Positions 2,311 to 64,000 of a DNA stretch of 64,000 bases are shown here, piece by piece. The position numbers were made by a program, and so were the translations under genes. The notes beneath the pieces are model-generated. The model saw nothing but the letters and a program-made list of their open reading frames with translations, searched no databases and was not told where the DNA came from. Source of the stretch: Bolinopsis microptera (Eukaryota; Ctenophora; Tentaculata; Lobata; Bolinopsidae); the NCBI RefSeq assembly GCF_026151205.1, contig NC_087083.1:3886460-3950459 (forward strand), written 5' to 3'. Position 1 is the stretch's first letter. Each line of letters opens with the position of its first letter.

Positions 2311-2375
2311 ACAACACGTCATATGACGTCACAACACGTCATGTGACGTCACAACACGCAGTATAACGTCACAAC
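2311..2375. repeat. 20-bp minisatellite with CRE core
   Basis: Three units of ACAACACGTCATATGACGTC with variants. Each carries an ACGTCA or TGACGTCA core. It is the same family as the array at 2802-2943, within the gene A intron. Confidence 0.8.
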
Positions 2376-2801
2376 TCTAGCTCCATGCACGTCCATATTA
2401 TTAGCAAAACTGGTTTTAACATGGTTTTCTGGGAGAGGTATGCCAGGATTGTTGCAATGAGTTTGTTTGCCAGCAGATATCAGTAAATTACCAGCCGTAC
2501 TAATTTCTCTGCTGTCTCCTGTCCTCTTATCGGAGTTGTTGACAGTTTAAACGCTCTAAATAATTTAATGGCCTTAAGTATCGGTTATTAGACGGCTCTC
2601 GCTGGTTTTTACTGGCTGATTTTTGAAGATGTGTCAGAAACACTCTCTATATGGTCTACTGAAGAGGTTAAGTTTGAAACCGGGGAAAGAGTTCTTTTAG
2701 GGTGAATAGTCACTGTCAGTGTGAAAGTGTGGTACATAGAGTGCATTTCTTCTTCGGGTTCGTCCTATGTCACATGGTGAGACGTCACGTTAATTCTACT
2801 C

Positions 2802-2943
2802 CACTTGATATGACGTCATAACATGTGATATGACGTCACAACACATGGTATGACGTCACAACACGTTTAATGACGTCACAACTCGTAGTATGTCGTCACA
2901 ACACGTAATATGACGTCACAACACGTAGTATGACGTCACAAGG
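2802..2943. repeat. 20-bp minisatellite with TGACGTCA core, abutting a splice acceptor
   Basis: About seven units of roughly TGACGTCACAACACGTAGTA, each with a CREB/ATF-type palindrome. The array ends about 36 bp before the acceptor of the gene A terminal exon, so it occupies the branch-point side of that intron. Confidence 0.85.
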
Positions 2944-2979
2944 TTACAGTGTCTCAGCTCTAATGCCTTGTCCTCCTAG

Positions 2980-3881
2980 GTCCGAGCCGGCAGAGTCTGA
3001 CGGGACGACCGCAGAAGAGCGCCCACGTGCTCGCAGTCGCGCAGTCCCACGAGCACGGTGCCCCGCTGCGTCAGTACGACGAGTTCGTTATAGACAGCTC
3101 CTCTGCAAACAATCCCCGCTCTGGCAGGACTTTTAACAGGGTGCACAGTGAGCCTGCCTTCAGATCATTCTCGTACAAACCTTCCTCCTCGGTCAGTAGT
3201 GGAGGAATAGTGTCACCTGGTCTTGTAGCAGGGTCACGTGGTGTGACGTCACGTGAGTCACGTGGTGTGACGTCACGTGAGTCACGTGACAAGAGGGAGG
3301 GTGAGGACGATGTGTTCTGTGATCCTGCAGAGAGTAGCACTGCGAGGCTTAGTGTAGTCGAGCCAAGCGAAGAATATCCACTTTTAGTTGAGGCCAGAGC
3401 ACCAGAGCCAAGCGTAGCAGATCCACTTTTAGTTGAGGCCAGAGCACCAGAGCCAAGCGTAGCAGATCCACTTTTAGTTGAGGCCAGAGCACCAGAGCCA
3501 AGCGAAGCAGAAATCAGCACAGCAGAAATCAGCACAGCAGATGTAAGTGCAGCAGAAATCAGTGCAGCAGAGATCAGTGTTGACACCACGGACACTTCCT
3601 CTGCTCTATTCGAAACCCCTAGCGACGTGTCGGACGGAGAGATAGAACCAGTAAAGTACATGCTGATAACCCGGCACATTTCCGAGTCAGAGTCCGAGGG
3701 AGACCCGGACATGAGTCCGGGAGTGAGTCCGGGAGCAGACTCCGGGGTTGAGTCCAGAAATGGGATCATGGAGTCGCACGGTACCCAGATTCTCCTTACA
3801 GCCCAAGACACTCACAAGCTAGCCGAGGATATGCCTTCACTGCAGACAGCTGCTTTTATAATGTCGCCTGAGTTCGTTTAG
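2980..3881 (+). CDS. Terminal exon of gene A: disordered Ser/Thr/Pro/Glu-rich C-terminus
   Basis: The acceptor TCCTCCTAG opens a frame continuous to the TAG at 3879-3881, about 300 codons. No ATG start is needed because it continues from the exon at 818 (phase 1). The first ~75 residues are the most protein-like, including QYDEFVIDSSSANNPRSG and VHSEPAFRSFSYKP. Then come SRGVTSRES repeats from a CRE/E-box DNA repeat (3233-3292), three copies of a 15-residue unit PLLVEARAPEPSVAD (3378-3512), an AEIS/ADVS repeat, and an acidic Ser-rich segment. No catalytic domain or membrane span is seen. It is probably a disordered tail of a signalling or scaffold protein, but I cannot name it. The antisense frame over the same stretch is a shadow. 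Confidence 0.65.
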
Positions 3882-3925
3882 AGGAAGCCTGTATAGCCTT
3901 GTTGGGCAAACTCTTTATGTTGAGG

Positions 3926-3993
3926 TGACGTCACGTAGTATGATGACGTCACGTAGTATGATGACGTCACGTAGTATGATGACGTCACGTGAC
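3926..3993. repeat. 18-bp minisatellite, CRE plus ACGT
   Basis: Four units of TGACGTCACGTAGTATGA directly after the gene A stop codon, in its presumed 3' UTR. The last unit ends in TGACGTCACGTGAC, a CRE overlapping an E-box. Confidence 0.85.
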
Positions 3994-4532: not shown

Positions 4533-4839
4533 TACGCGCAGAGAGGTTTTAACACGTGCAGGGAGGTTTTAGCACGTGCACGGAGGTTTTAGCACGTGCA
4601 GGGAGGTTTTAGCACGTGCAGGGAGGTTTTAGCACGTGCAGGGAGGTTTTAGCACGTGCAGGGAGGTTTTAGCACGTGCAGGGAGGTTTTAGCACGTGCA
4701 GGGAGGTTTTAGCACGTGCAGGGAGGTTTTAGCACGTGCAGGGAGGTTTAAACACGTGCAGAGAGGTTTTAGCACGTGCAGGGAGGTTTTAACACGTGCA
4801 GGGAGGTTTTAACACGTGTAGGGAGGTTTTAACACGTGA
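4533..4839. repeat. 20-bp minisatellite with invariant CACGTG E-box
   Basis: About 15 units of CACGTGCAGGGAGGTTTTAG. The A/G and T changes fall outside the CACGTG core, which is kept in nearly every unit. No gene is seen between 3994 and 6515 apart from this and the arrays listed next. Confidence 0.9.
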
Positions 4840-5055: not shown

Positions 5056-5127
5056 TGTGACGTCATACTGCGTACTGTGACGTCATACTGCGTACTGTGA
5101 CGTCATACTGCGTACTGTGACGTCACA
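5056..5127. repeat. 20-bp minisatellite TGTGACGTCATACTGCGTAC
   Basis: Four near-identical units, each with TGACGTCA. It is a separate family from the arrays at 2.3-2.9 kb but shares the same 8-bp core. Confidence 0.85.
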
Positions 5128-6515: not shown

Positions 6516-7649
6516 ATTTATTTTTAATTGTAGTTGACTAAATGAGAGTCTCCACTCAGTGTGTTAAAACATAATTCTTTGTCAACTACAAGATCTCAGT
6601 ATCAACAGAATAGCTGATATGCTAAAGAAGAATAGTTTCCCTCCTAATATTGTCAAGAAACTTATTCGAGAAACACAGAATACACTGGATAAACAAAATG
6701 CGCCTAAAAAGAACTCAAAAATAGCTTGCTTATCATTGCCTTATATAAATGAACAGACGTGTCGAAAAGTCTACTATACCCTAAGAAATCAAAACCTCTT
6801 GGATTCCACCAGGGTAACATTCACATCAGGTCAACGTCTCATGGAAGCTTTAACAAGATCTAGCCTACAGCAAACAAAATGCAATAAACAAAGTGACAGC
6901 AAATGCTACCAGTGCGATAAATCCTGCATGATCAAAAACATTTGCTACCAATTAATATGCCAAATATGTAATAAGTCCTACATTGGGGAAACTGGTAGGT
7001 TTAAAAGAAGTAGAGCCTGGGAACACTACAAATCAGTAAGGGATGGCAACAAATCTACGGCCATGGGGAAGCACTACCTAGAGGAGCATGCAGACATTTC
7101 AATGCCAAACATACCGTTTCGGTTTATAGTTCGAAAAAGATGTAAAGACTATGTGGACCGTCAATTGTGGCAGTCGGTTCTAATAAAACGTGAAAACCCA
7201 GAAATAAATACTCAATTGTCTGAGTCCGTAAATGAAGGTGATTGGATAAAATATACTTGGAAGTTAATGTAATATTGAACTTATAAACCTAGATAATTTT
7301 TGATTAATCAGTTTTATGAAGGAGCTATCTTGGTAAAATGTTTGTAGTATTATGAAGAATTGTTCACGGCTTGTTGCGGTTTGGATTCTTTTAGCCGTTA
7401 TATTTTATGTTTCTTTTGGATAAATTTGTGATTGTTGTTGTGTTTCAAGATGTTATTTGTTGTTGTTATATTTCGTAGTATTAATAGATTATTTTAATAG
7501 ATTATTTTAACATTGTATCTTTGCAGCTATGTAAGTTTTCAGTACGTCCTGTTTATGACAAAGGCATGTAGCCGAAACGTCGACAAAGAATTATGTTTTA
7601 ACACACTGAGTGGAGACTCTCATTTAGTCAACTACAATTAAAAATAAAT
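6516..7649 (+). mobile_element. Short Penelope-like element with 68-bp terminal inverted repeats
   Basis: The left end (6516-6583) and right end (7582-7649) are inverted copies of each other, containing GAGTGGAGACTCTCATTTAG on the right. Between them lies one open frame for a GIY-YIG protein and no reverse transcriptase domain. Just before the right repeat is GGCATGTAGCCGAAACGTC, a stem-loop followed by GAAAC that resembles the 3' half of a hammerhead ribozyme; such ribozymes are known in Penelope terminal repeats. The full CTGATGA core is not visible. Best read as a 5'-truncated Penelope copy carrying an inverted terminal repeat. Confidence 0.75.
6619..7272 (+). CDS. Penelope-like GIY-YIG endonuclease fragment
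   Basis: 217 residues matching the C-terminal part of Penelope-like retroelement proteins. The N-terminal ~60 residues correspond to the linker after the reverse transcriptase. At residues ~90-115 there are paired cysteines (CYQCDKSC, then CQIC) of the zinc-binding linker. SYIGETGRFKRSRAWEH is the YIG half of the GIY-YIG nuclease with its Arg and the downstream Glu-His. The reverse transcriptase is absent, so the copy cannot move alone. The frame is undamaged from ATG to TAA, which suggests recent insertion or selection on this short form. Host function is unknown. Confidence 0.85.
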   Translation: MLKKNSFPPNIVKKLIRETQNTLDKQNAPKKNSKIACLSLPYINEQTCRKVYYTLRNQNLLDSTRVTFTSGQRLMEALTRSSLQQTKCNKQSDSKCYQCDKSCMIKNICYQLICQICNKSYIGETGRFKRSRAWEHYKSVRDGNKSTAMGKHYLEEHADISMPNIPFRFIVRKRCKDYVDRQLWQSVLIKRENPEINTQLSESVNEGDWIKYTWKLM

Positions 7650-10197: not shown

Positions 10198-10421
10198 GAT
10201 TCTCATAATTACTGTTGCTATAGTTACAATTCTCTTAATTACTGTTGCTATAGTTACAATTCTCATAATTACTGTTGCTATACTCTATAGTTACAATTCT
10301 CATGTTTACTGTTGCTATAGTTACAATTCTCATAGTTACTGTTGCTATAGTTACAATTATCATGTTTACTGTTGCTATAGTAACTACAATTCTCATGTTT
10401 ACTGTTGCTATAGTTACAATT
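10198..10421. repeat. ~29-bp minisatellite (ATTACTGTTGCTATAGTTACAATTCTCAT type)
   Basis: About seven diverged units with the core TACTGTTGCTATAGTTACAA. The following 10422-11335 shows no gene-like frame. Confidence 0.85.
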
Positions 10422-18894: not shown

Positions 18895-19192
18895 GTCATC
18901 AATTTGATGACGTCACCACATGTGTATTGTGTACAACCAATTTCATGACGTCACCACATGTGTACAATCAATTTGATTACGTCACCACATGTGTAAAATC
19001 AATTTGATGACGTCACCACATGTGAACAATCAATTTGATTACGTCACCACATGTGTAAAATCAATTTCATGACGTCGACAAGTGTACAATCAATTTCATG
19101 ACGTCGACAAGTGTACAATCAATTTCATGACGTCGACAAGTGTACAATCAATTTGATGACGTCACCACATGACGTCACCACAAGTGTATAAA
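18895..19192. repeat. ~31-bp minisatellite with TGACGTCAC core
   Basis: About nine units of roughly GATGACGTCACCACATGTGTACAATCAATTT. Variants lose CACC (ATGACGTCGACAAGTG). The CRE half-site ACGTC persists in all units. No gene between 19193 and 19800. Confidence 0.85.
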
Positions 19193-19805
19193 CATAATCA
19201 ATATTTCAAATAAGCAAGAGAGGGACTGTAAGTATAAGACAGAGAGGCCAGTGCTGAAGAAGCAGCTAAATAGCGTGAGATACCTCTATCAAACTCAGTA
19301 ATTTGATTTTAAAATGCTCGGAATTTGCCAACTTTTCACCGATAGGATGATACCATTTTAGGAGGCAGTGAAGATAATGGGGTTAACGACGGTAAAGTTC
19401 AGGGCCTGTCCAGGGCCTGTGCTCCTTGGGTCATAGATCTCAGAGACATTCGTCACATATCTTCTAGAGTTTAGAGTGTAGACCAATAACTCAATAATGA
19501 GACTACGGACGCGTCAAGTTTAATAAAATAATAACAGAATATGTAGCAGAAATAATAAGAAAATATAATAAAGTTTATCGTGCGGCCATCAAATTAGAAC
19601 TAGGACGGGCCCGATAAGAAAACTAGTAAAACTAATGCTTTAAACAACACATTTTACACTTTTACAGATATAATAGCTTTTTAATTACCAGCTATTATAA
19701 CAGCAAGAAACTGGGTAGATTCCAACTCTAAATCTAACAAAAAGCCACGTTTCTAAATCTAATAATGGGGTCCCTGCCATCCTGATACCAGCTCTAGTGT
19801 GGCGT

Positions 19806-19891
19806 AATGTCACGTGGTGTGACGTTATGTCACGTGGTGTGACGTAATGTCACGTGGGGCGACGTCATGTCACGTGGGGTGACGTCATGTC
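19806..19891. repeat. 20-bp minisatellite, E-box plus CRE
   Basis: Four units of TGTCACGTGGTGTGACGTCA, pairing CACGTG with TGACGT at fixed spacing. A partial copy recurs near 21467. Confidence 0.85.
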
Positions 19892-19923
19892 ATACTGATA
19901 CCAGCTCTCCTTGGCCAATAGTG

Positions 19924-23747: not shown

Positions 23748-26700
23748 TGAGGTAAACTGTTGAATAACCACAAGTTGTAACACAAGGACAATGAGGTAAA
23801 CTGTTGTAATAACCACAAATTGTAACACAAGGACAATGAGGTAAACTGTTGTAATAACCACAAGTTGTAACACAAGGACAATGAGGTAAACTGTTGTAAT
23901 AACCACAAATTGTAACACAAGGACAATGAGGTAAACTGTTGTAATAACCACAAGTTGTAACACAAGGACAATGAGGTAAACTGTTGTAATAACCACAAGT
24001 TGTAACACAAGGACAATGAGGTAAACTGTTGTAATAACCACAAATTGTAACACAAGGACAATGAGGTAAACTGTTGTTATAACCACAAGTTGTAACACAA
24101 GGACAATGAGGTAAACTGTTATAATAACCACAAGTTGTAACACAAGAACAATGAGGTAAACTGTTGTAATATCCACAAGTTGTAACACAAGGACAATGAG
24201 GTAAACTGTTGTAATAACCACAAGTTGTAACACAAGGACAATGAGGTAAAGTGTTGTAATAACCACAAATTGTAACACAAGGACAATGAGGTAAACTGTT
24301 GTAATAACCACAAGTTGTAACACAAGGACAATGAGGTAAAGTGTTGTAATAACCACAAGTTGTAACACAAGGACAATGAGGTAAACTGTTGTAATAACCA
24401 CAAGTTGTAACACAAGGACAATGAGGTAAACTGTTGTAATAACCACAAGTTGTAACACAAGAACAATGAGGTAAACTGTTGTAATAACCACAAGTTGTAA
24501 CACAAGGACAATGAGGTAAACTGTTGTAATAACCACAAGTTGTAACACAAGGACAATGAGGTAAAGTGTTGTAATAACCACAAGTTGTAACACAAGGACA
24601 ATGAGGTAAACTGTTGTAATAACCACAAATTGTAACTCAAGGACAATGAGGTAAACTGTTGTAATAACCACAAATTGTAACACAAGGACAATGAGGTAAA
24701 CTGTTGTTATAACCACAAGTTGTAACACAAGGACAATGAGGGTAAACTGTTGTAATAACCACAAATTGTAACTCAAGGACAATGAGGTAAACTGTTGTAA
24801 TAACCACAAATTGTAACACAAGGACAATGAGGTAAACTGTTGTAATAACCGCAAATTGTAACACAAGGAAAATGAGGTAAAGTGTTGTAATAACCGCAAA
24901 TTGTAACACAAGGACAATGAGGTAATCTGTTGTAATAACCACAAGTTGTAACACAAGGAAAATGAGGTAAACTGTTGTAATAACCACAAATTGTAACACA
25001 AGGACAATGAGGTAAACTTTTGTAATAACCACAAGTTGTAACACAAGGACAATGAGGTAAACTGTTGTAATAACCACAAGTTGTAACACAAGGAAAATGA
25101 GGTAAACTGTTGTAATAACCACAAATTGTAACACAAGGAAAATGAGGTAAACTGTTGTAATATCCACAAATTGTAACACAAGGAAAATGAGGTAATCTGT
25201 TGTAATAACCACAAATTGTAACACAAGGACAATGAGGTAATCTGTTGTAATAACCACAAGTTGTAACACAAGGAAAATGAGGTAAACTGTTGTAATAACC
25301 ACAAATTGTAACACAAGGACAATGAGGTAAACTGTTGTAATAACCACAAGTTGTAACACAAGGACAATGAGGTAAACTGTTGTAATAACCACAAGTTGTA
25401 ACACAAGGAAAATGAGGTAAACTGTTGTAATAACCACAAATTGTAACACAAGGAAAATGAGGTAAACTGTTGTAATAACCACAAATTGTAACACAAGGAA
25501 AATGAGGTAAACTGTTGTAATATCCACAAATTGTAACACAAGGACAATGAGGTAATCTGTTGTAATAACCACAAGTTGTAACACAAGGAAAATGAGGTAA
25601 ACTGTTGTAATAACCACAAATTGTAACACAAGGACAATGAGGTAAACTGTTGTAATAACCACAAGTTGTAACACAAGGACAATGAGGTAAACTGTTGTAA
25701 TAACCACAAGTTGTAACACAAGGACAATGAGGTAAACTGTTGAATAACCACAAGTTGTAACACAAGGACAATGAGGTAATCTGTTGTAATAACCACAAGT
25801 TGTAACACAAGGAAAATGAGGTAAACTGTTGTAATAACCACAAGTTGTAACACAAGGACAATGAGGTAAACTGTTGTAATAACCACAAATTGTAACACAA
25901 GGACAATGAGGTAAACTGTTGTAATAACCACAAATTGTAACACAAGGAAAATGAGGTAAACTGTTGTAATATCCACAAATTGTAACACAAGGAAAATGAG
26001 GTAAACTGTTGTAATATCCACAAATTGTAACACAAGGACAATGAGGTAAACTGTTGTAATAACCACAAATTGTAACACAAGGACAATGAGGTAAACTGTT
26101 GTAATAACCACAAGTTGTAACACAAGGAAAATGAGGTAAACTGTTGTAATATCCACAAATTGTAACACAAGGAAAATGAGGTAAACTGTTGTAATAACCA
26201 CAAATTGTAACACAAGGAAAATGAGGTAAACTGTTGTAATAACCACAAATTGTAACACAAGGAAAATGAGGTAAACTGTTGTAATATCCACAAGTTGTAA
26301 CACAAGGATAATGAGGTAAACTGTTGTAATAACCGCAAATTGTAACACAAGGAAAATGAGGTAAAGTGTTGTAATAACCGCGAATTGTAACACAAGGACA
26401 ATGAGGTAAACTGTTGTAATAACCACAAGTTGTAACACAAGGAAAATGAGGTAAACTGTTGTAATAACCACAAGTTGTAACACAAGGACAATGAGGTAAA
26501 CTGTTGTAATATCCACAAGTTGTAACACAAGGACAATGAGGTAAACTGTTGTAATAACCACAAGTTGTAACACAAGGACAATGAGGTAAACTGTTGTAAT
26601 AACCACAAGTTGTAACACAAGGACAATGAGGTAAACTGTTGTAATAACCACAAGTTGTAACACAAGGACAATGAGGTAAACTGTTGTAATAACCACAAAT

Positions 26701-27787
26701 TGTAACACAAGGAAAATGAGGTAAACTGTTGTAATAACCACAAGTTGTAACACAAGGACAATGAGGTAAACTGTTGTAATAACCACAAATTGTAACACAA
26801 GGACAATGAGGTAAACTGTTGTAATAACCGCAAATTGTAACACAAGGAAAATGAGGTAAACTGTTGTAATAACCACAAGTTGTAACACAAGGACAATGAG
26901 GTAAACTGTTGTAATAACCACAAATTGTAACACAAGGACAATGAGGTAAACTGTTGTAATAACCACAAATTGTAACACAAGGACAATGAGGTAAACTGTT
27001 GTAATAACCACAAATTGTAACACAAGGAAAATGAGGTAAACTGTTGTAATATCCACAAATTGTAACACAAGGACAATGAGGTAAACTGTTGTAATATCCA
27101 CAAATTGTAACACAAGGACAATGAGGTAAACTGTTGTAATAACCACAAATTGTAACACAAGGAAAATGAGGTAAACTGTTGTAATATCCACAAATTGTAA
27201 CACAAGGAAAATGAGGTAAACTGTTGTAATATCCACAAATTGTAACACAAGGAAAATGAGGTAAACTGTTGTAATAACCACAAATTGTAACACAAGGAAA
27301 ATGAGGTAAACTGTTGTAATATCCACAAATTGTAACACAAGGAAAATGAGGTAAACTGTTGTAATATCCACAAATTGTAACACAAGGACAATGAGGTAAA
27401 CTGTTGTAATATCCACAAATTGTAACACAAGGAAAATGAGGTAAACTGTTGTAATATCCACAAATTGTAACACAAGGACAATGAGGTAAACTGTTGTAAT
27501 ATCCACAAATTGTAACACAGGAAATGAGGTAAACTGTTAAACCACAATTGTAACACAAGGACAATGAGGTAAACTGTTGTAATAACCACAAATTGTAACA
27601 CAAGGACAATGAGGTAAACTGTTGTAATAACCACAAATTGTAACACAAGGACAATGAGGTAAACTGTTGTAATAACCACAAATTGTAACACAAGGACAAT
27701 GAGGTAAACTGTTGTAATAACCACAAATTGTAACACAAGGACAATGAGGTAAACTGTTGTAATAACCACAAGTTTTAACACAAGGAT
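23748..27787. repeat. 45-bp satellite array, about 90 copies
   Basis: The unit begins TAACCACAAATTGTAACACA and ends GGTAAACTGTTGTAA, 45 bp. Units differ at a few fixed positions (ACAAA/ACAAG, GGACAA/GGAAAA, TAACC/TATCC, AACTG/ATCTG/AGTGT), giving sub-families. Since 45 is a multiple of three and the unit lacks minus-strand stops, three minus-strand frames stay open for up to 1289 codons. They yield hydrophobic or Cys-rich 15-residue repeats (for example VDITTVYLIFLVLQF). Rare single-base indels (25741, 24740, 27520) shift the frames without consequence, so I read this as satellite DNA and not a gene. Confidence 0.95.
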
Positions 27788-32830: not shown

Positions 32831-33033
32831 GTAGCTCGTGCAGGAAGTTAACCTTTACACGCGCTCACCAGCACCCTGGATCTCTGCCCTCTGATTGGTT
32901 GATCTTACACCACGTGACTAATGTCTGCTCGCTCATTGGCTGCTGTTCTACGGGGAGTCTGTTAGAGTGTGCAGAGACACAGACAGGCTGCAGTTTTGCT
33001 GTTGAGACATGTTTTGTTGTAATGCAGTTTCAG

Positions 33034-34420: not shown

Positions 34421-34540
34421 GTAAGTTTAAAGCTGGTTTGCTCCTCATTATTTTAGTTTCACACCGCACCCCTCACCCTTGAGATGACAATAATTTGCCA
34501 TTTGTTATGCATCCCAAAAGTGATGGTAATGTAGTAAGTA

Positions 34541-36384: not shown

Positions 36385-37259
36385 GGGTAATAGTAAGGGT
36401 AATAGTTTAAGGGTAATAGTAGTATTAGGGGGATCATGCTTTCAGAGTTAAATATTATGACTTTTATTGAGTTCACAATATTCCTAATCCTGAGATAATT
36501 TATGATGGTTAAATACGATTCCAATTATTTTCAAGTAAAGGCTGAAGAGTAAAGAGCACGTGTAAAGAGCACGTGTTCATATTATCTAGTTGACTAAGTT
36601 GCTCCAATATACCACATTACAAAACAGGTAACGTGTTGTTGTGTACAAAACAGGATACGAGAACAGGTAATAAAGTAATGAGCTCCCATCTCAATAAGAA
36701 GGGCTGAAGAGTAAACTACAAAAACAACAGCGTCTCACACTAAACGTTCCAACACTAAGCAAATAAAAGTGAGATCAAAGAACCGCCCTGTAGTTACCAT
36801 GACAACTAGTCCCTGTACAATTTGTCGGGTGTGTTCCAGTCACGTGACTGATAATTTCAGCCCACTGTTACCATAGTGTTACCCTGGCTACCCAGCCTAT
36901 CATGATGTTATCATGGTTATCCGGTTATCTCCTAGAACTCTAGAAACCTATCAGTATGACATCATCAATACGTCACGACATATCAATTAAGGACCATATG
37001 AGAGGGACTAGAGGGACTAGCAATATTGTTCAGGCTTTATTCGGGATTTAGTTCCGGGTAAACGTAAAACCTAAACAGCCGTGATGTCATGTCAGACAGC
37101 ACCACCTGTTATCTTGTCTTATCTGACGAGACGGAGCAGAAGTTTTAAATGGTTATTACCTCATCTCAATCTTAGTTGCATTTTGTTGTACTATTATTAT
37201 TATCAACAGAAGCAAGCAGTTTGATAAGCGGCACAATCTCAAAAGCAAATAATAAAGCT
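36385..37259. other. Non-coding, no supported gene
   Basis: Short AAGGGTAATAGT repeats at 36385-36420, otherwise mixed sequence with scattered CACGTG words. Confidence 0.5.
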
Positions 37260-38621: not shown

Positions 38622-38710
38622 CACGTGACCAATGTAGCACGTGACCAATGTAGCACGTGACCAATGTAGCACGTGACCAATGTAGCACGTGACCAATGTA
38701 GCACGTGACT
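38622..38710. repeat. 16-bp minisatellite CACGTGACCAATGTAG
   Basis: Five to six units, each joining an E-box (CACGTG) to a CCAAT box at one-base spacing. Confidence 0.9.
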
Positions 38711-38892
38711 AATACACCATGTGACATGTTAGATAAAGTGTCACGTGGTGTGGAAGGCTAATGGACCTGTCTCAGATCTTCTTAACCACTCTCACGCTGG
38801 AGTACTTTTAAATGGCACTGGTATGTTGGAGTACGGTTAATAAGGTGGTTTATAATTTTTAATGTAACAGTATTTAAATGTTACAGACTAGT

Positions 38893-41245: not shown

Positions 41246-41430
41246 GCTGTGATCTGATTGGTTGTTGACTCCGTAATCTGTGATCTGATTGGTTGTTGAC
41301 TCCGTAATCTGTGATCTGATTGGTTGTTGTTGACTTTGTAATCTGTGATCTGATTGGTTGTTGACTCTGTAATCTGTGATATGATTGGTTGTTGAGTCTG
41401 CAGTAATCTGTGATATGATTGGTTGACTCC
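41246..41430. repeat. ~31-bp minisatellite with inverted CCAAT box
   Basis: Six to seven units of GTAATCTGTGATCTGATTGGTTGTTGACTCC. GATTGG (CCAATC on the other strand) is constant while neighbouring bases vary. 41431-43031 has no supported gene before the candidate first exon. Confidence 0.85.
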
Positions 41431-45760: not shown

Positions 45761-46030
45761 ACTCTCCAAATAACCACGTGGTATAGCAACTAGCCAAGCA
45801 AACCTCTCCAAATAACCACGTGGTATGGCAACTAGCCAAGCAAACCTCTCCAAATAACCACGTGGTATGGCAACTAGCCAAGCAAACCTCTCCAAATAAC
45901 CACGTGGTATGGCAACTAGCCAAGCAAACCTCTCCAAATAACCACGTGGTATGGCAACTAGCCAAGCAAACCTCTCTAAATAACCACGTGGTATGGCAAC
46001 TAGCCAAGCAAACCTCTCCAAATAATCACG
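45761..46030. repeat. 42-bp minisatellite with CCACGTGG core
   Basis: Six units containing AATAACCACGTGGTATGGCA. All have an E-box. As 42 is divisible by 3, frames on both strands stay open; they are artefacts. Confidence 0.95.
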
Positions 46031-46504
46031 TGATTAGTCAGCCAGCTGTGTATCATGACACCACGTGTATTGTACACTGGTCCTCCTCCACTGCATTCTC
46101 ACTAAAACCCTTTCTAACCCAGGTTCTCGCTTTTATCAGTGTTCTTCATTGTAGTAACCTCCACCACGCATCAATACTGTGCTCTGATTGGCTGTTTAAA
46201 GTCACGTGGTACTGATACTGATACCTGGTTGGCTGGTGTCATGACACTAATCTATTGCTTGTGAGCTCGATTACTCCTACCTCACGTATTAATATCCTAG
46301 GATTACTATATACTATATACCCCCTGTGTCATATTATGAGCGAGTTTACCACTGCAATATTTATTATTTACTGGTGTATATTTTAGTGCTGTCTATGTTG
46401 TGGTCTCTTGAGTATATTTAATTGCTTAATCACCCAATTAGTAGTTACTTAATTACACGTTATCTCTCGCTAATTAGCTAATGAGTACATGATAGCTCAT
46501 CGTA

Positions 46505-52753: not shown

Positions 52754-52908
52754 GCACGTGGTATTATTACCTTATATGGTAGTGTGACCACGTGATGTGG
52801 TATTATTACCTTATATGGTAGTGTGACCACGTGATGTGGTATTATTACCTTATATGGTAGTGTGACCACGTTATGTGGTATTATTACCTTATATGGTAGT
52901 GTGACCAC
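52754..52908. repeat. 39-bp minisatellite joining E-box and CArG box
   Basis: Four units. Each has CACGTG (one mutated to CACGTT) and the exact CArG word CCTTATATGG at 52770, 52809, 52848 and 52887, followed by TAGTGTGACCACG. The minus frame is an artefact. Confidence 0.9.
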
Positions 52909-53035
52909 GGGACTGGCGGCGCGCATATCTGGTGTCTTGCTGATGGATGTATTCTGCTGAAGATGTCTTGGAATGTCGCGCTGAAGTGTCTCTCTGATGA
53001 TGATGATAATTTTGTCTTGTTCATAGAAAGATATA

Positions 53036-53115
53036 GTAACTATGGTAACTATAGTAACTATAGTAACTATAGTAACTATAGTAACTATAGTAACTATAGT
53101 TACTATAGTTACTAT
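53036..53115. repeat. 9-bp satellite (TAACTATAG)n
   Basis: About nine units; the last two invert to TTACTATAG. 53116-54168 has no supported gene. Confidence 0.85.
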
Positions 53116-54789
53116 AGAAAGATATAATATTTCAAGATGCCTGCTCTTTCTAAGGATTTTAACAGTGATTTCACATTCTATTTCAAAAGTTTTTGGCTAA
53201 TCCACAGATATGTTTGGTCAGACCGGTAGAATCAGCGAATTGACATGATTACTGAGTTACTCAATCTAGACAATCTCAATCTTTCTTTCTTATTTTCTCT
53301 TATCTTGTTCTGAAGTTCTAACAGTCTCCAGTATAATCAGACAGTTTGCAGACAATGTGTATATTTTCTAGATCATGGCAAGCATTTGATTGGTCTGCAT
53401 CATGTGTGCTACTATTACCAACTAATCTGCATGGCTTTGAGAGCAGTTTCATTGAAATGCATGGCTCTAGCATCTAATTACTAACCAATTACCTACTAAT
53501 TACTAACAAATTACCATCCAATTACCAACCAATTACCAACTAAAGAACTAATAAGCAACTAATCACTCAGATCTGCTTACTAATTAATTTGTTACTCAAG
53601 TACAGATGGTAAACTATAACTTGCTGAACTGTTGTTTGAGAAACTCTTATTTGACTTAATATGGTAATGTTTTGAAGATCGCACTATTTATTTAGTTTGA
53701 CATAACTTGACTCTACCAGCCAACTACTTGGCTACTTGATCATAGTTCATGGACAGATGCGACACATTCGTTACTATATAGTTACTATAGTTACTATATT
53801 AACGAAATAGTCTCGACTTAAATTCCAGCATTATTCTTCTCTATAAGACTCTATGAGAGCAATAAATATCCTGATATAGTCCCCGCACTTAAACCGGACC
53901 AGAATATTACCTGGCCTGATAATTCCGGTATGTAGCCCTATTTTACAAACAATGATCGAACCAAATGCGATTATAACGGACTAAACTTATGGTCCGGATT
54001 GGAGAATTCGCTGTACGCATAGTAGCACTGGTAACCTATAGCTCTATAGAGTATAATAGCACTGGTAACTACATTAGTGGAGATAACTGTTTGAAGCCAG
54101 TGACGCGGGAGATCTGATTAAACCCACGATCTGATTACCTGTTGCTGGTACATAGTCACCACACAGTTCACAGTTCACATGTATAATACATAGTATAATG
54201 TTTCAACCAATCAGTGGAATTATCTAAACAATCAGAGCACTCCTCATTGATAACACTTAGTTTCAGTAGGGTTGTAAAAGTTACTATAGTTACTATAGTT
54301 ACTATAGTTACTATAGTAACCAGGTAGTAACTAAAGTTACTCGAGCTGCAATACCAATTGAGACTACTTCCATCTCAAATAACTCATCACTCTAGTCTCT
54401 AGCCCCTGACCACCTGCTAAAATGTGTACACTGTAGCTAGTCAGAGAGATCTACATTACAGATCTACATTAGCAGTAAGATTACATTAGCCTCCTGAGGG
54501 AGAGATCTGTAAGATGTTACTCCAGGTGGTATAAATAGGGAGAGAGAGAGAGTGGGGGGGGGGGGTTCATTAACCTGAGAGAGAGAGGGGGGTCATTAAC
54601 CTGAGAGAGAGAGGGGGGTCATTAACCTGAGAGAGAGAGAGAGGGGGGAGAGAGGGGGAGAGAGGGAGAGAGAGAGTATCTCATATTACATCGTTATAGC
54701 CACATCAGACATACTCCACTCTACACTTTCCGGGAAACTCTCAACTAGCTCATCTCGAGTCTCGACTTGCTTCCCGCCATCAACTCTGA

Positions 54790-54831
54790 TCACGTGGGAA
54801 CATTACCATATATGGTAATGACCCCACGTGA
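54790..54831. promoter_or_regulatory. E-box/CArG palindrome, copy 1
   Basis: TCACGTGGGAACATTACCAT joined to ATATGGTAATGACCCCACGTGA. The centre CCATATATGG fits CC(A/T)6GG and both shoulders carry CACGTG. The left shoulder has changed (GGGAAC for GGGGTC) relative to copy 2. Confidence 0.45.
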
Positions 54832-55937
54832 CTCCACCCCGCCAGATCCTGGCCCCTATAACAACATTACTCGGTACCTTGTGTATCAGGTTACTCTACT
54901 GGTCCCTGATACACTTGACACTCAGCTCTCCACTCTAGTCCCTGTAGTCCGTGTATTAGGGGACTAGTGGAGTGTGCTTCACTTTTGTATCCGCTGTAAA
55001 CTTGACACTCAGCTCTCCACTCAGCTCTCCACTCTTCATTATCTACTGTAATTTAACTCATTGTTACACAGGGGGCTTTCGCGAAGTTGAAATATTTTGT
55101 TGCGTTGTTCTTAGTTTATGTTGTTAATCTGATACGCTGTGCAGTTTGGAAATTTAAATCGAGCGGCAGATTTTAGAATTAATTATCTTGAGAACATTTG
55201 TTAGCTACATTTAAGACCTATCAGTATTTGTTTTCTTAATATTGGTACAATTGAAGCTTATACCTTTCAAAAAATAACTAGGTTTCCGTAATGCTGAAAA
55301 GTTCATAACCTGGTTATATAAGCTCACAGTTAGTTCCCCTTTTCTCATAGCTAGGTAGAACATTTGTTAACTGCATTTAAGACCTTTTACAGTATAGTAC
55401 ATATTAGTATGTATTAGTAGTCAGTATCTGTTTTCGTGATATTGGTATCCTTGCTGCTTCAATCTTCACTCCGTCATATCACATGGTAGTTCCCCTTGGT
55501 AGTTCCCTTTTCTAGCGTACACGGGACCCGTACTCACGTACAGGACAGTCCCGTATACACGTACAGACTCCAGGGTCTATTGTTTGATCTTTGAAGCCTT
55601 TATGACCGGACCTACCGATCTGTATAATTGTTGAGCTCATCTAGTTGGAGAATACGTGTAATCAGTTTTGCAGTGATATCCGGTATTCAGTTCGGATGAC
55701 TCTCCGAGTTGCTCTTGTTTAGACGTTTATTGTTTTCATTTCGTCGTGTATAATTCACGTGATGCCCAAATAAGGATTGTATAATCTCACAGTTCACACT
55801 CTTATCTCTTATCTAACTTATTATCATAGAGTTTCAGTAGGGTTGTATAAGTCGGGTACTGGTTATGAGTTATAGGAAGATTGTCGCTAAAAACAGGTGA
55901 GATTCGGGGTTACAATTACAAAACCGCAAGGGTTGCT

Positions 55938-56066
55938 ATAGTTACCATAGTTACTATAGTTACTATAGTTACTATAGTTACTATAGTTACTATAGTTACT
56001 ATAGTTACTATAGTTACTATAGTTACTATAGTTACTATAGTTACTATAGTTACTATAGTTACTGTA
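55938..56066. repeat. 9-bp satellite (TTACTATAG)n
   Basis: Fourteen units. Its counterpart in copy 2 (58528-58605) has only about eight, so the array has changed length since duplication. Confidence 0.9.
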
Positions 56067-57330
56067 GGTACAGAATACAGATAATTGGTATAAACTTGAG
56101 TTGGTGATTGCCTGCATGTAGCTCAGTTTAATAATTACATAATTGTAATGAGTTAATTACATCTAAATAATGTTACTTTAAAGTATGATCCGAATGATCT
56201 GGTTTTACAGCGGCTGGCATCATTTAAATATTAAAGTAGTGTGCGTTATTCGGATGCGAGATATGGGCCTAACGGATATTCTCTAACAGTATGGTTGCTA
56301 ACGAAATTACATCAGTTCACAAAACAAGACATAAAAAATAGATCGACAATATTGTAAGGTCATGGTATACTGCTAATATACTAAAAGTTAAGTGAAATAG
56401 CGCAACAGCTACTTTGTTGACTACCCTAGCTTAACCAGACTACGGCGATGATCTAGTATACAGTTAACATTATAGTTACTATAGTACTATACGAAGATAG
56501 TCGCAGATTAATTATTTCTCTATACTACCAGCATAGTTATCTATCGTCTGGACTTAGTACAACCATGTATTAACTATGCAGTTACCTAGGTAGTAACCAG
56601 TGAGGTTACCAATCGTTATCCCTATAATATACCGATGAGATTGTGTACAAAGCATGGCACTATAGCTCTCAGATATAATAGTGTACTATATGAGTTTAAC
56701 ATACGGAATATTAAACCAGATAGATTACTGTTGTGTTACATATCACACAGTTCACAGTTCACATGTATATACATAGTATAATGTTTCACCAATCAGTGGA
56801 ATATCTAAACAATCAGAGCACCCTTGTAACACTTATTTCGTAGGGTTGTATAGTTAACCTATAGTTACTAAGTTACTATAGTTACTATAGTACCAGGTAG
56901 TAACTAAAGTTACTCGAGCTGCAATACCAATTGAGACTACTTCCATGAACCATCCAAATAATCATCACTCTAGTCTCTAGCCCCTGACCACCTGCTAAAA
57001 TGTGTACACTGTAGCTAGTCAGAGAGATCTACATTACAGATCTACATTAGCAGTAAGATTACATTAGCCTCCTGAGGGAGAGATCTGTAAGATGTTACTC
57101 CAGGTGGTATAAATAGGGAGAGAGAGAGAGTGGGGGGGGGGGGTCATTAACCTGAGAAAGAGAGGGGGTTAACCTGAGAGAGGAGGGGGGGGGGTCTTTA
57201 ACCTGAGAGAGAGAGAGAGAGAGAGAGTATCTCATGTTACATCGTTATAGCCACATCAGACATAATCCACTCTACACACGGGAAACTCTCAACTAGCTCA
57301 TCTCGACTTGCTTCCCGTCATCAACTCTGA

Positions 57331-57372
57331 TCACGTGGGGTCATTACCATATATGGTAATGACCCCACGTGA
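57331..57372. promoter_or_regulatory. Perfect 42-bp palindrome: E-box, CArG box, E-box
   Basis: Perfect dyad centred between 57351 and 57352. Half-site TCACGTGGGGTCATTACCATA, with the CArG word CCATATATGG at the centre and CACGTG on both flanks. It could act as a regulatory site or a cruciform-forming sequence. Confidence 0.5.
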
Positions 57373-57549
57373 CCCCACCCCGCCAGATCCTGGCCCTATA
57401 ACAACATTACCCGGTACCTTGTGTATCAGGTTACTGTACTGATCCCTGTACTCCGTGTATCAGTGGACTAGTGGAGTGTGCTTCACTTTTGTATCCGCTG
57501 TAAACTTGACACTCAGCTCTCCACTCATCTCTCCACTCTTCATTAGGGC

Positions 57550-57668
57550 CTGCCCACACTACGCCTCTATTCCCCGAATGTCTGCCCACACTACGCCATG
57601 TTTTGACGGGCCACATGGCGTGGGTCAAAAAAACTGGATTCACACAACGAGGCGCGTAGTGTGGGCAG
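57550..57668. mobile_element. Small MITE in duplication copy 2 only
   Basis: Ends CTGCCCACACTACGCC and GGCGCGTAGTGTGGGCAG form terminal inverted repeats. It is absent from the corresponding place in copy 1 (~55033-55044). The flanking CTCTCCACTC sequence is repeated on both sides, so the exact target duplication is unclear. Confidence 0.65.
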
Positions 57669-59744
57669 AGCTCTCCACTCAGCTCTCCACTCTTCATTAT
57701 CTGCTGTAATTTAACTCATTGTTACACAGGGGGCTTTCGCGAAGTTGAAATGTTGAGTTTTGTTGCGTTGTTCTTAGTTTATGTTGTTAATCTGATACGC
57801 TGTGGTTTGAAATTTAAATCGAGCGGCAGATTTTAGAATTAATTATCTTGAGAACATTTGTTAACTGCATTTAAGACCTTTTACAGTATAGTACATATTA
57901 GTATGTATTAGTAGTCAGTATCTGTTTTCGTGATATTGGTACAATTGAAGCTTATACCTTTCAAAAAATACCTAGGTTTCCGTAATGCTGAAAAGTTCAT
58001 AACCTGGTTATATAAGCTCACAGTTAGTTCCCTTTTCTCATAGCTAGGTCAGGGTGTATCCTTGCTGCTTCACTCCGTCATATCACATGGTAGTTCCCCT
58101 TGGTAGTTCCCCTTTTCTAGCGTACACGGGACCCGTACTCACGTACAGGACAGTCCCGTATACATGTACAGACTCCAGGGTCTATTGTTTGATCTTTGAA
58201 GCCTTTATGACCGGACCTACCGATCTGTATAATTGTTGAGCTCATCTAGTTGGAGAATACGTGTAATCAGTTTTGCAGTGATATCCGGTATTCAGTTCGG
58301 ATGACTGTCCGAGTTGCTCTTGTTTAGACGTTTAGTATTTTCATTTTGTCGTGTATAATTCACGTGATGCCCAAATAAGGAGTTATACGTGTATAATCTC
58401 ACTCTCTTATCTCTTATCTTAAATATTATCATAGAGTTTCAGTAGGGTTGTACTGATTATGAGTTATAGGAAGATTGTCGCTAAAAACAGGTGAGATTCG
58501 GGGTTACAATTACAAAACCGCAAGGTTGCTATAGTTACTATAGCTACTATAGTTACTATAGTTACTATAGTTACTATAGTTACTATAGTTACTATAGTTA
58601 ATGTAGGTACAGAATACAGATTGAGATAATTGGTATAAACTTGAGTTGGTGATTGCTTGTATTTAGCTCAGTTTAATAATTACATAATTGTAATGAGTTA
58701 ATTACATCTAAATAATGTTACTTTAAAGTATGATCCGAATGATCTGGTTTTACAGCGGCTGGCATCATTTAAATATTAAAGTAGTGTGCGTTATTCGGTT
58801 GCGAGATATGGTTGCTAACGGAGATATGGTTGCTAACGGAGATATGGTTGCTAACGGAAGGGTTGTTCATTAGTTTCATCAGGAAACAAACATAAAAAAT
58901 AGCGGACAATCTTGGCTGGTTTCATGTTCCATCTCGCTAGATATCCACTAAAAAGTCTACAGTGAAAACGGCGGCAATCCCAGCCTCCCCCTTCTGTGAC
59001 GTCACGCCTTATGACGTCACGACTAACGAGCGAGACTAGTTAACATTAACAATTATACCCGGTTATACTACGAAGAGTAGTCGGGCAGATTATATTTGCT
59101 GCTACTCCCGCATGTTTGATCTCGTCTGAGACTTTAGTCAGCAAACACCTGTTATAACACTGCCAGGGTTACCAGGGTTACCAGGGTTGCCAGGGTTACC
59201 AGTCTGTATCCCTCTTATTATATACTGCATGTAAGCTTGGTTAAACAGCATTGGGCAAAGCATTCTCACGATTATAATAGTGTTAATTACTGTTGACACT
59301 TTAAATCAATGGACGATATCAAGCAATAAGAGTTTTTTGGGAAATATGTACTTTTAAATGGTGTAAATTCCTCGTGTGCTTTATCACACGATTAGATGAT
59401 TTAATATTCCTGATAATACGCCGCCTTGATTACAAGTGATGACAACTTTTAACGATGACAACTTTTAACTGACTCAAATTGGGACTCGGACCAGCCGTTA
59501 ATCACAAACGATTAAATAATTCGTTGCCAAACCTCCGTGTCATTACATCTTGTGACCACGATTTGTGACAAGGAAGGTAATCATGACTTATGACAGCAAC
59601 TTATATACTTATATAGTAACTATGGTTACTATGGTAACTATGGTTACTATGTTTACTATGGTTACTATGGTAACTATAGTAACTTATGACCACCACTTGA
59701 GATGTTACATGTGACTAAGGCTTACTTAAGCGTTTTATTTTCAG

Positions 59745-60458: not shown

Positions 60459-60580
60459 ACCACGTGTTAAACCTGTCACGTGTTAAACCTGCCACGTGTT
60501 AAACCTGCCACGTGTTAAACCTGCCACGTGTTAAACCTGTCACGTGCTAAACCTGCCACGTGTTAAACGTGTCACGTATC
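60459..60580. repeat. 16-bp minisatellite (CACGTGTTAAACCTGC)n
   Basis: Eight units, E-box CACGTG kept in all but the last (CACGTA). The remainder of 59833-61768 holds a CTTTCA microsatellite (59855-59895), TATGGTTAC repeats (59620-59690, before the array) and a GA run (61271-61297), with no supported gene. Confidence 0.9.
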
Positions 60581-61437: not shown

Positions 61438-61520
61438 CTTTCCGGTACCGTAAAACTGTCGGTATTTTCTGGTGCCGTAAAACTGTCGGTATTTTCTGGT
61501 GTCGTAAAACTGTCCGATAT
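61438..61520. repeat. 27-bp repeat (GGTATTTTCTGGTGCCGTAAAACTGTC)
   Basis: Three units. The minus-strand open frame over it (RKYRQFYGT repeats) follows from the unit length. Confidence 0.8.
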
Positions 61521-61768
61521 TTTGAAACTGCCAGTCTAGAATAGTAGTCAAGGTTCAATTGTTTACAGTTTGGTGTTTACAGCCTGATAGTAGCTCCACC
61601 CAGTACCCTGTACCACACGGTCTACAGATCAACGAGAATAGTCACATGACTTAGTTCAAACTGGTCACGTGATTTAGTAAATATGTTAGATCTGGACAGA
61701 ATAGCGTTTTTAATAGTGTCATCTTTGTTCTTTTGTTAAGGGCGCCTAATATTGTTATGAATTAATCT

Positions 61769-63457
61769 GAGTGGAGTTGGGTTAAAAACATATAAGAGAT
61801 ACGATGATTTAACTTGTAGAAGCTTTCAATAAACATGTGTTAATCGTCGTCAGCTGAATGTGATGTGGTGGACAATGCTTATATGTGATTGAGTGGTGTC
61901 AGGGATGGAGGGTGGGGGAGGTGTGGGTGGGAAAGTGAAAATTACAGTACAATGTCAATAAAAATTTAGTCTTCTGTTGAGGTTGAGAAGGAAATGCCAG
62001 ATGGTCTTGACTTTAAGGATTTGGCAATTTTAGGAAGAATGGGGTCCCAGAGGGAACTACATTTGGGTGCGCGGTCTGTTCTGTTCATAGCGGGTTGTCG
62101 TATTTGTATAGCTGCGTGTTCTGTGAGGTCAAGTTGGGAGCGTGAGGTGAGGGATTTGAGGACTTCGATGTTGTTCCAGGAGATGGTGTGGCCGGTGGTC
62201 AGGGCATGATGTGCAGGGGCTGATTTGATTCTGTCTGTGGATTCGTCGATGGCGTTGTTGAGTCTGTAACATCGTTCGTGTTCTTTCATGCGGTGGACCA
62301 AGGGTCTGTAGGTCTGTCCGGCGTATTTGGAGGGGCACTGTGAGCAGGAAATTTCGTAGATGGTGTTGGGAGTGAGGTGAGTAGGGGGTGTGGTCTTCGT
62401 TTTGGTGAGGAGGTTGCAGAGGGAGGTAGCAGAGGAGTGGGTGACTTTGATGTCGTGTTGTCCGAGTATCTTGGAGATGGGTTTGGATAGGGAGGGATGG
62501 AAAGGAAGAGAAACACTAAGGGCATGTTCACGGGTCTGTCGGTTGAATGAGGCTAGGGATTGGTGGCGAGAGGGGTTGGTGAATTTCCGTTGTACTTCGT
62601 CCATGATGGTGGTGATGCGGTGAGGAGGGAAGCCGTTCTGGAGGCAAACGTGTCGTACTGTCTGGAGTTCGTCGTCAAGGTGTTGGGGTGAGCAGATGTT
62701 GTGGGCTCTTCTGGTCAGTGATCGGATGACTGCGTTCTTAGATGAGTTGGTGGTGCAGGAAGAGTACTTGGTGTAGAGGTTGGTGTGGGTGGGTTTTCTG
62801 TAGACTGATGTGGATTTGTCAGGGTGGATGAGAACGTCAAGGAAGGGTATAGTTCCGTCTGTAGAGGGATGTTCTTGGGTAAAGTTGAGGTCTTCAGTAA
62901 GGGAGTTAAGGAATGTAAGGAAGGATTCTGCGTGGTTTCTGTCTCTGAAAGATCCAAGGCCGTCGTCAACGAAATGGGAGTAAGTGTTCGGAGGGTCAGG
63001 ACATGAGGATAAAGCTAAGGTCTCGATTTCAGCAAGGCGGATTTCAGCTAGTTCAACAATGAGGGGGGATCCCATTGTACCACCTTCGTCTTGGGAGTAG
63101 AAGGAGCCGTTGAATTCAAGGTATGAGTTGTCAAGGCAAAAGTTGATAAGGGAGCCTATGGTGGTGGTGGTGACATTGGAGGGAAGACGAGAGGGGTTCT
63201 GTTCAAAGGAGGAGATGACAGTTTTGAGAGCTAGGCGCATGTCACAGGAGGTGTACAAGGATTGGACGTCTAAGGAGGCGTGGTAGTGGAAGGAGGGATT
63301 GAGAGAGGAGTCGAAGCGATGTTTGAAGTCGGAAGAGTCTTTGAGGCGTAAGGGGTTCTGGGCTAGGGGTTTGAGGAAAGATGCGAGGACTTTGTGGAGG
63401 GCTTGGAGGGGGGTGTTGTAGAAGCTGACTACGGGACGGAATTAATGACTACGGGAC
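61769..63457 (-). mobile_element. Penelope-like retroelement, 5'-truncated, with 15-bp target duplication
   Basis: GTTATGAATTAATCT occurs exactly at 61754-61768 and 63458-63472, flanking the element. The 5' end (63457 side) stops inside the reverse transcriptase, and the last bases there (GACTACGGGACG) are repeated in tandem at 63427 and 63447. This fits an incomplete reverse transcription event. The 3' end lies at 61769. Confidence 0.85.
61966..63446 (-). CDS. Penelope-like reverse transcriptase plus GIY-YIG endonuclease, N-terminally truncated
   Basis: Open for ~490 codons to the TAG at 61966. The frame already carries coding sense above 63258: RPVVSFYNTPLQALHKVL is the conserved RPIVS region, and HASLDVQSLYTS is catalytic motif A. 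Then EGGTMGSPL (motif B), YSHFVDDGLGSF (motif C with the DD pair), IPFLDVLI and VYRKPTHTNLYTKYSS. The zinc and nuclease part reads IYEISCSQC, then KYAGQTYRPLVHRMKEH, with HHALTTGH further on. No internal stop is seen, so the insertion looks young. The N-terminal part of the polymerase is lost, so it is not autonomous. Antisense frames are shadows. Confidence 0.9.
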
Positions 63458-63505
63458 GTTATGAATTAATCTCCGTTATTTGTTACGACTGATTTCTCTT
63501 TACAG

Positions 63506-63577
63506 ATGTTTAGTAACTGTAACGGTACTCGTAACGGCACTCGTTTGATTTTGTCTTCGCAGAGAAATCAAACTTAA
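63506..63577 (+). CDS. Candidate terminal exon after the 59832 donor
   Basis: Acceptor GATTTCTCTTTACAG, then MFSNCNGTRNGTRLILSS QRNQT and TAA in phase 0, as required by the donor at 59832. Splice-site quality is good but the peptide is short and unrecognised. It lies only 33 bp from the Penelope insertion, which would be intronic. Confidence 0.35.
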   Translation: MFSNCNGTRNGTRLILSSQRNQT

Positions 63578-64000
63578 ACCACAAACTTAACTTTATTGGG
63601 TTTGTTATTACCTTATATGGGCATCACGTGATTTGTGATGAAATCATCTGCTGACCGTTGGTCTGCAGTGTAGAGGGTTTATAAAGTTATGAGGGCTGAT
63701 TTCTTTTGGTGTTTTAAAGATTTTTCATCGTCGGTTTTTCAGTTGTTTCATTTTGTTTTGGCAGAGACATTTTGTGCAGCCGTGATCACTGTCATTCGGT
63801 CCCATAAAACTCAAACCAAAAACATAACTTCATTGGGTTTATGATCCAATAATAGTACTATCCAAGCATGGCCACAACTCTGGTCAAATCATCTGCTAAA
63901 ATATGTAAAGTGTTATTCTGCGGTAAGGGTATGGTGTGAACTTCTCTCTTCTCGATCATGGTATAGATGACGAGTGAAGACTCACAAGGAAGCCACACTT
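63578..64000. other. Right end of window, no gene supported
   Basis: Includes a second CArG plus E-box composite (CCTTATATGG at 63611, CACGTG at 63625). Confidence 0.5.

Follow-up and report, generated by a model that had tools for sequence, protein, structure and literature searches.

Why should tandem repeats that differ in unit length and in surroundings be built around the same few regulatory words? The question is raised by a window of 64,000 nucleotides (the whole stretch of DNA analysed) from the ctenophore Bolinopsis microptera, located on contig 12 of the assembly at positions 3,886,460-3,950,459. Of two glutamate-receptor frames compared with solved structures, one has the Mnemiopsis receptor ML032222a as its best match, as would fit a lobate ctenophore, although for the other kainate and further receptors score higher. 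In an original prediction made from this sequence, eleven minisatellite arrays were described as sharing words that resemble transcription factor binding sites, here named CRE (TGACGTCA), E-box (CACGTG), CArG (CCTTATATGG) and CCAAT/ATTGG; the X-box (GTTRCYATRGYAAC) is now added. By array calling with Tandem Repeats Finder (TRF) and exact word counts, all eleven arrays were found in place, with units of differing length (16-42 bp) and with the named words. The phenomenon is real, genome-wide and word-specific, although narrower than predicted as regards CCAAT and wider as regards RFX. The sharing of words for regulatory proteins among unrelated tandem repeats suggests that such sites may seed or preserve repeats. 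The origin of minisatellites is an open question, and a genome in which a few dimer-binding words mark many independent repeats makes seeding testable; it allows seeding by bound proteins, a role of the arrays as a reservoir of sites for gene control, or both, to be tested directly.

Enrichment of the words in array units

Two sets of array units were compared with dinucleotide shuffles of the units: 110 non-redundant units of 9-150 bp from the window, and a sample of 133 units from 20 unseen 10-kb stretches. At least one of the four predicted words was carried by 26 of the 110 window units (5.6 in shuffles) and by 15 of the 133 sample units (6.7). The excess was found to be word-dependent. 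The 8-bp ATF/CREB core, TGACGTCA, occurred in 10 window units against 0.30 shuffled and in 2 sample units against 0.04, and CACGTG in 15 against 2.8 and in 8 against 1.6, so that enrichment over shuffled arrays holds for both words in the window and in unseen DNA. It does not clearly extend to CCAAT (6 window units against 2.65; 6 sample units against 5.08). The CArG word was seen in a single window unit (0.00 shuffled) and in no sample unit (0.02), and the X-box half-site GTTRCY in 20 window units (8.2) and 15 sample units (7.6, with shuffles reaching 16).

The units were also scanned word-blind. In the window, GACGTC, CACGTG and TGACGTCA all passed at a familywise value of 0.000. In the unseen DNA, CACGTGAC ranked first among 8-mers (familywise 0.017), while the 6-mers were led by CACGTG, with GACGTC in third place (familywise 0.22 and 0.72, neither significant by itself). 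In addition, ATGACGTC, which contains ATGACGT, was present in 6 of 97 distinct window units against 0.21 expected; ATGACGT we take to be the M26 heptamer, so a word of the M26 type is in excess here. No M26-like enrichment of CCAAT was found, either in array units or in genome-wide pairs.

Genome-wide counts against control words

Close pairs of word copies were counted across the 264.65-Mb assembly (232 contigs, of which contigs 1-13 are chromosome-sized at 15.2-26.2 Mb and contig 14 measures 198 kb), on the plus strand unless two figures are given. The CRE forms 5,764 pairs 16-38 bp apart, compared with 389 for ACTGCAGT, its letters reversed, and with 151 and 11 for two further palindromes of the same letters, TCAGCTGA and AGTCGACT, the latter also a CpG palindrome. 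Single sites number 17,814 for the CRE and 7,538 for ACTGCAGT; with 0.32 against 0.05 pairs per site, a CRE is therefore about six times likelier to stand in a close pair. The window itself is unusually CRE-rich, holding 42 copies where the genome averages about 4.3 per 64 kb. E-box pairs number 28,907, against 4,401 for the control.

The RFX X-box, overlooked in the original prediction, is among the strongest cases genome-wide, as 4,066 sites of GTTRCYATRGYAAC, presumably the RFX X-box form, stand against 30 of the reversed word and about 19 expected; it recurs in the tandem units of loci L073-L080, which were chosen for the X-box. For CArG, proposed as an array core, the genome-wide pairs bear the proposal out (253 and 276 on the two strands, against 2 and 0), whereas the array units reported above do not. 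Among the matches listed, CArG pairs often have CACGTG or an X-box in between. Also among the matches listed, a CACGTG often comes after CArG at a fixed distance (CCTTATATGGGCATCACGTG), or else an X-box within a unit of 32 bp. The arrangement is a composite grammar of three factor classes.

Two further words were tried and rejected as array cores. Pairs of the AP-1 word TGASTCA show no genome-wide excess over their control (2,008 against 2,520), and the listing of these pairs is dominated by one long array. CCAATCA likewise shows no genome-wide excess, with 847 and 1,164 pairs against 3,151 and 3,136 for the reversed word ACTAACC, a control that may be inflated by X-box-like arrays and makes the comparison weak; the CCAATCA pairs do exceed a random expectation of about 48 per strand.

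Constancy of the cores within arrays

It had further been claimed that the core stays intact while the flanking bases vary. Two sets of arrays bear on this claim: targeted arrays, which are biased in core constancy because their loci were chosen by exact word pairs, and blind arrays, found without regard to words, which are the set to trust. Left out of the targeted core tests are 11 loci that have flanks or a local unit in common with another (L023, L025, L026, L028, L029, L030, L034, L046, L048, L066 and L071). In the blind arrays, CRE and E-box cores showed 25 mismatches in 1246 positions, compared with 119 in 2652 elsewhere in the units (rotation p 0.0002); with indels counted, the figures were 33 in 1246 and 125 in 2652 (p 0.0027). 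Among the 22 blind arrays with a CRE or E-box, the core was less variable than the rest in 15 and more variable in 5, and for five control tetranucleotides a core-versus-rest difference was absent. The main statement of the original prediction survives, because TGACGTCA and CACGTG exceed shuffles and their cores change about half as fast, but it does so as a statement about rates. Taken literally it does not hold, since in the array at 18895 the CRE is exact at only 5 of 10 positions. CCAAT cores vary like the rest of the unit (9 of 160 against 43 of 862 mismatches). With no clear excess in units, pairs below the reversed word genome-wide and an unconstrained core, CCAAT/ATTGG has to be dropped from the predicted set of array cores.

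An apparent core difference at the X-box half-site (GTTRC, naive p 7e-5) was traced largely to one 90-copy array; the fuller word GTTRCY is not matched by that array, and no significant difference was found when this word was used with rotation. The contribution of CpG was also considered. In word-free arrays, CpG positions change more than others (42 of 477 against 379 of 15,602), while CpGs inside the cores are less changeable than those elsewhere in the same arrays (6 of 376 against 10 of 219 in blind arrays, p 0.04; 9 of 779 against 12 of 302 in all). Retention of CpG alone is disfavoured as an explanation, because the CpG palindrome AGTCGACT seldom forms pairs and CpG is absent from the X-box.

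Identity and spacing of the putative sites

The bases next to the CRE extend the match beyond the 8-mer. In all 33 distinct TGACGTCA units (11 from window and sample, 22 targeted, eight loci being omitted from this count) a purine precedes and a pyrimidine follows the core, where 25% would be expected (p 1.4e-20). Counted site by site, RTGACGTCAY was found at all 42 window positions, at 23 of 25 in the sample and at 162 of 173 among targeted loci, which makes 227 of 240, with 13 breaking the rule. Among the matches listed, both inner flanks obey it at 26 of 28 CRE loci by hand count; 20 of these 28 had been picked, and the omitted ones include the two that break it. RTGACGTCAY is, we assume, the full ATF/CREB site. 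The CRE arrays are accordingly described as putative full 10-bp ATF/CREB sites rather than bare 8-mers, and because the extended site was matched in every distinct unit, protein binding at them may be predicted with better grounds than a guess. As regards the X-box, exons encoding the RFX DNA-binding domain (PF02257) were identified above cut-off on contigs C9 and C4, so that an RFX protein is available in this genome.

The pairs also favour certain distances. The CRE pairs fall at 18-22 bp in 4,611 of 5,764 cases (80%), compared with 66 of 389 for ACTGCAGT. Over the initial 3.0 Mb of contig 1 (C1), 20 of 21 CRE loci have a pair at this spacing by hand count, some of them sharing flanks; the density there, about 7 loci per Mb, extrapolates to some 1,850 loci genome-wide. 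Furthermore, same-orientation CCAATCA pairs whose spacers are unrelated favour distances of 21, 30 and 31 bp, which are two and three helical turns, in 31 of 48 spacer families (p 2e-16) formed from 79 distinct strings among the matches listed; under stricter clustering, 17 of 22 families lie at these distances. Since the spacers are unrelated, phasing exists without tandem duplication. One CCAATCA array, at C1:2,586,866-2,587,403, alternates between 21 and 30 bp.

Independence of the loci

The arrays had been described as having unrelated flanks, and this description was confirmed at 60 further loci fetched together with some 300 flanking bases at either end: 43 had no flank match, 15 fell into seven groups with long shared flanks, and two share 58 bp. 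Tandem units with the same site are therefore present at unrelated loci, as in homotypic clusters. Within flank-sharing groups, copy number may differ, for instance 3.2 units at L021 against 6.1 at L026, and 3.9 at L047 against 2.9 at L048. Identical units also recur without shared flanks: an 18-bp unit at 930, 932, 934 and 1,376 kb of C1 and a 20-bp unit at 1,938 and 1,988 kb (loci among L027-L030 and L036/L038), and a 29-bp unit twice in L018 (6748 and 8882), where the flanks have no detectable similarity. Such recurrence means either that units can be copied independently of the DNA around them or that the sites follow a narrow grammar.

Possible origins of the arrays

The reading preferred here, held at somewhat less than an even chance, is that the arrays are amplified putative sites for dimeric factors (ATF/CREB, basic helix-loop-helix-zipper, RFX and perhaps SRF) that would have expanded from phased pairs and then been retained. 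Regulatory use would place dimer sites in pairs about two helical turns apart. Such a phased pair would also be a pair of short direct repeats, from which slippage or unequal exchange could build an array whose unit length equals the spacing of the founding pair. Copies with intact sites would be retained, either through selection for binding or because intact sites sustain exchange; array birth at sites accessible in the germline is assumed. Arrays of this kind might act as dispersed enhancers, and bound proteins might promote repeat birth, as the original prediction also supposed.

Several observations weigh against this reading. Counting indels weakens the CRE taken alone (p 0.09 in blind arrays), although not the E-box. 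E-box constancy in the targeted arrays, picked by their words, is not significant (p 0.29; 0.13 with indels), and for X-box cores the rotation tests show no significant gain in constancy over the remainder of the unit. Members of several of the seven groups with common flanks carry equal numbers of exact words. The 18-22-bp share of CRE pairs may be raised where arrays are long; among sample arrays of period 16-38, 28 of 70 likewise lie at 18-22 bp. Among the CRE pairs examined on contig 1, to which one 33 bp apart at 2,999,940 does not belong, few lack a TRF repeat; these have spacings of 22, 18 and 21 bp (the L022 group, the L033 group and L040). E-box units have, by eye and among the matches listed, no tight length preference. 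Phasing alone is insufficient, because CCAAT is phased and yet has no clear excess in arrays. Finally, arrays are present within long open frames and a probable 3' untranslated region, where an enhancer role is less expected.

Protein-driven birth offers a possible, if rather unlikely, alternative, in which a bound site would provoke germline duplication by acting as a replication barrier or by initiating recombination, the arrays would be mostly neutral by-products, and units that lose the core would stop expanding. It would account for the excess of some sites and not of AP-1 or CCAAT, for the identical 18-20-bp units at loci without shared flanks, and for the apparent disregard of gene compartments, with arrays in a probable intron, a long frame, a probable 3' untranslated region and downstream DNA within 3 kb. 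In fission yeast, M26 (Atf1-Pcr1) and CCAAT activate meiotic recombination hotspots (PMC11352267). CCAAT, the second of these hotspot words, has no clear array excess here, however, and protein-driven birth by itself leaves the 18-22-bp spacing unexplained. A bolder form of the idea, that occupied, mostly palindromic factor sites generally drive the birth of minisatellites in the germline of this lineage, acting through several factor classes and copying 18-20-bp units without their flanks, is doubtful.

Pure regulatory selection, under which homotypic clusters would be kept because multiple sites are useful while duplication itself is unbiased, is considered unlikely. The extended RTGACGTCAY match, the slower change of the cores and the phased CCAAT pairs agree with it, and in flies regulatory modules are known to arise by local duplication (PMC3188502). 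Against it stand long arrays such as L072 (about 56 units), in-frame arrays within long open frames, and the lack of an AP-1 excess. As the cause of site retention, selection and protein-driven birth are both compatible with the data.

Three remaining explanations are each highly improbable. Protein-free slippage promoted by palindrome hairpins could draw on the palindromic form of TGACGTCA, CACGTG and the X-box and the partial symmetry of CCTTATATGG, all visible by direct reading, and control palindromes, too, form more close pairs (389, 151 and 11) than the one or so expected by chance. Yet the same-letter palindromes are 15 to 500 times rarer in pairs, none of 11 control palindromes occurs within window or sample array units, and the flanking purine and pyrimidine, which hairpins do not require, are nearly fixed. 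Predicted fold energies of the paired words, covering the CRE and three control palindromes, are alike (-8.9 kcal/mol for the CRE; -8.7, -9.1 and -8.3 for AGTCGACT, ACTGCAGT and GATCGATC). A generic palindrome or hairpin cause is disfavoured by these matched palindromes. Spread of the words by a transposon or dispersed repeat family would fit the 15 of 60 loci in shared-flank groups, e.g. L022/L023/L025 and L062/L066, but is disfavoured for the bulk of the loci, since 43 share no sequence past the array and many different spacers are seen. Coding repeats, in which the word would spread because it codes for a repeated Thr-Ser-Arg-Asp peptide, fit five window arrays in three long frames (periods of 18, 21 or 24 bp, TGACGTCA being translated as Thr-Ser) and perhaps some loci elsewhere, but are excluded as a general cause: in 26 of the 42 CRE array rows examined the period is not a multiple of three, in 22 every frame is interrupted by stops, and 9 are found within frames of at least 150 codons, most loci being short pieces.

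Relation to known systems

A PRDM9-type motif occurs in human hypervariable minisatellites. These resemble the present arrays in that one protein-binding word is common to unrelated minisatellites; they differ in that the words found here are others, represent several factor classes and imply no zinc-finger array. In fission yeast, M26, CCAAT and Oligo-C are sequence-specific meiotic hotspot sites (PMC11352267, PMC6827382). M26 provides a parallel as an ATF/CREB-type word that serves as a DNA site affecting recombination (PMC11352267), but the analogy is partial, because CCAAT fails in arrays; in addition, the ctenophore case is known from sequence alone and adds E-box, X-box and CArG. In Drosophila, regulatory modules form by local sequence duplication (Nourmohammad and Laessig, 2011; PMC3188502). 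Neighbouring binding sites there likewise derive from short local duplications within about 50 bp, although in the sections of that study bearing on this point tandem repeats explain little, whereas present-day arrays here keep a few words genome-wide.

Ctenophore loop anchors carry a GC-rich motif bound by CTEP1/CTEP2 (PMC12221973), which is similarly a CpG-containing protein-binding word at many ctenophore sites. The likeness is one of description, and the terms tandem, RFX and CREB are absent from the main text of that paper (PMC12221973). Minisatellites have also been catalogued in a placozoan (PMC2871265) and in humans (PMC8096271). The placozoan survey asks whether ACAGT, its commonest microsatellite, is a binding site, and in the portions of both surveys that concern us no transcription factor core common to unrelated minisatellites is reported. 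In Mnemiopsis, one unassigned scaffold is reported to be a tandem repeat of an 18-bp unit containing GTTAC (PMC11797021), which is possibly related to the X-box half-site. In the open-access literature on hotspot words, sponge and ctenophore motifs, RFX or CREB minisatellites, site clusters and ctenophore minisatellites, no description of the phenomenon was found. If the sites are what they resemble, the arrays would give a partial view of the regulatory vocabulary (CRE, E-box, X-box, CArG and phased CCAAT) of a very early animal branch directly from sequence.

Arrays and neighbouring features of the window

Between 2.3 and 5.1 kb, CRE arrays follow one another through a probable intron, a probable last exon, the region past its stop codon and downstream DNA, the gene structure being judged by eye. 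The first (2310-2375; 3.3 copies of a 20-bp unit with TGACGTCA) probably lies in the intron, and its unit is common to the second (2808-2941; period 20/40 bp, six exact TGACGTCA), while their flanks are unmatched; the second lies just upstream of a splice-acceptor-like AG at about 2979. A 305-codon plus-strand open frame ending in TAG (2964-3881), read from the sequence as the probable last exon, contains a 24-bp CRE/E-box array in frame (3233-3288; SRGVTSRE). An 18-bp array with four exact TGACGTCA (3926-3990) follows about 45 bp past the stop codon, probably in the 3' untranslated region, and a 20-bp array with four exact TGACGTCA stands at 5056-5125. Because arrays are found in intron, exon, 3' untranslated region and downstream alike, their formation seems indifferent to gene compartments, with coding selection presumably keeping the frame.

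Further in-frame arrays are situated on the plus strand in two long frames. The 476-codon frame (29097-30527) contains 21-bp CRE/E-box arrays at 29803-29880 (VTSRDSV) and 30341-30433, and the 570-codon frame (32770-34482) contains an 18-bp CRE array at 33164-33264 (RVTSPH) and a 21-bp CRE/E-box array at 34223-34329 (MTSRDSR). These two frames and the 305-codon frame carry in-frame repeats of the Thr-Ser-Arg-Asp type encoded by CRE/E-box words, and none of the three was matched by Pfam.

Among the other arrays, a CRE array of 29-31 bp with five exact TGACGTCA is located at 18900-19182. Exact CACGTG is repeated fifteen times in a 20-bp array (4534-4838), four times, with TGACGTAA, in another (19797-19892), six times, with CCAAT, in a 16-bp array (38622-38725), and seven times each in arrays of 42 bp (45762-46032) and 16 bp (60460-60577). 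A 31-bp array has six ATTGG (41247-41425), and a 39-bp array has four CCTTATATGG plus CACGTG (52754-52915). Two X-box-related arrays had not been named in the original prediction: a 30-bp array with X-box half-sites (GTTGCTATAGTTAC) at 10199-10421 and an 18-bp X-box-like array (TATGGTAACTATGGTTAC) at 59612-59677. Arrays of the 9-bp unit GTTACTATA, which is half of an X-box step, were called at five places, 53032, 54279, 55932, 56849 and 58525. The region 53032-58600 looks duplicated, as small arrays match at 54447/57025 and at 55006/57510.

A further array of the window consists of 90 copies of a 45-bp unit over 4 kb (23748-27786); as its unit length is divisible by three, three antisense frames stay open there over stretches exceeding 1,000 codons. 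Lastly, the frames 6568-7272, 35431-36441 and 61966-63441 look by eye like the ends of Penelope-like retroelements that carry a GIY-YIG nuclease; of these, only 35431-36441 gave a Pfam GIY-YIG match, weak and below the cut-off.

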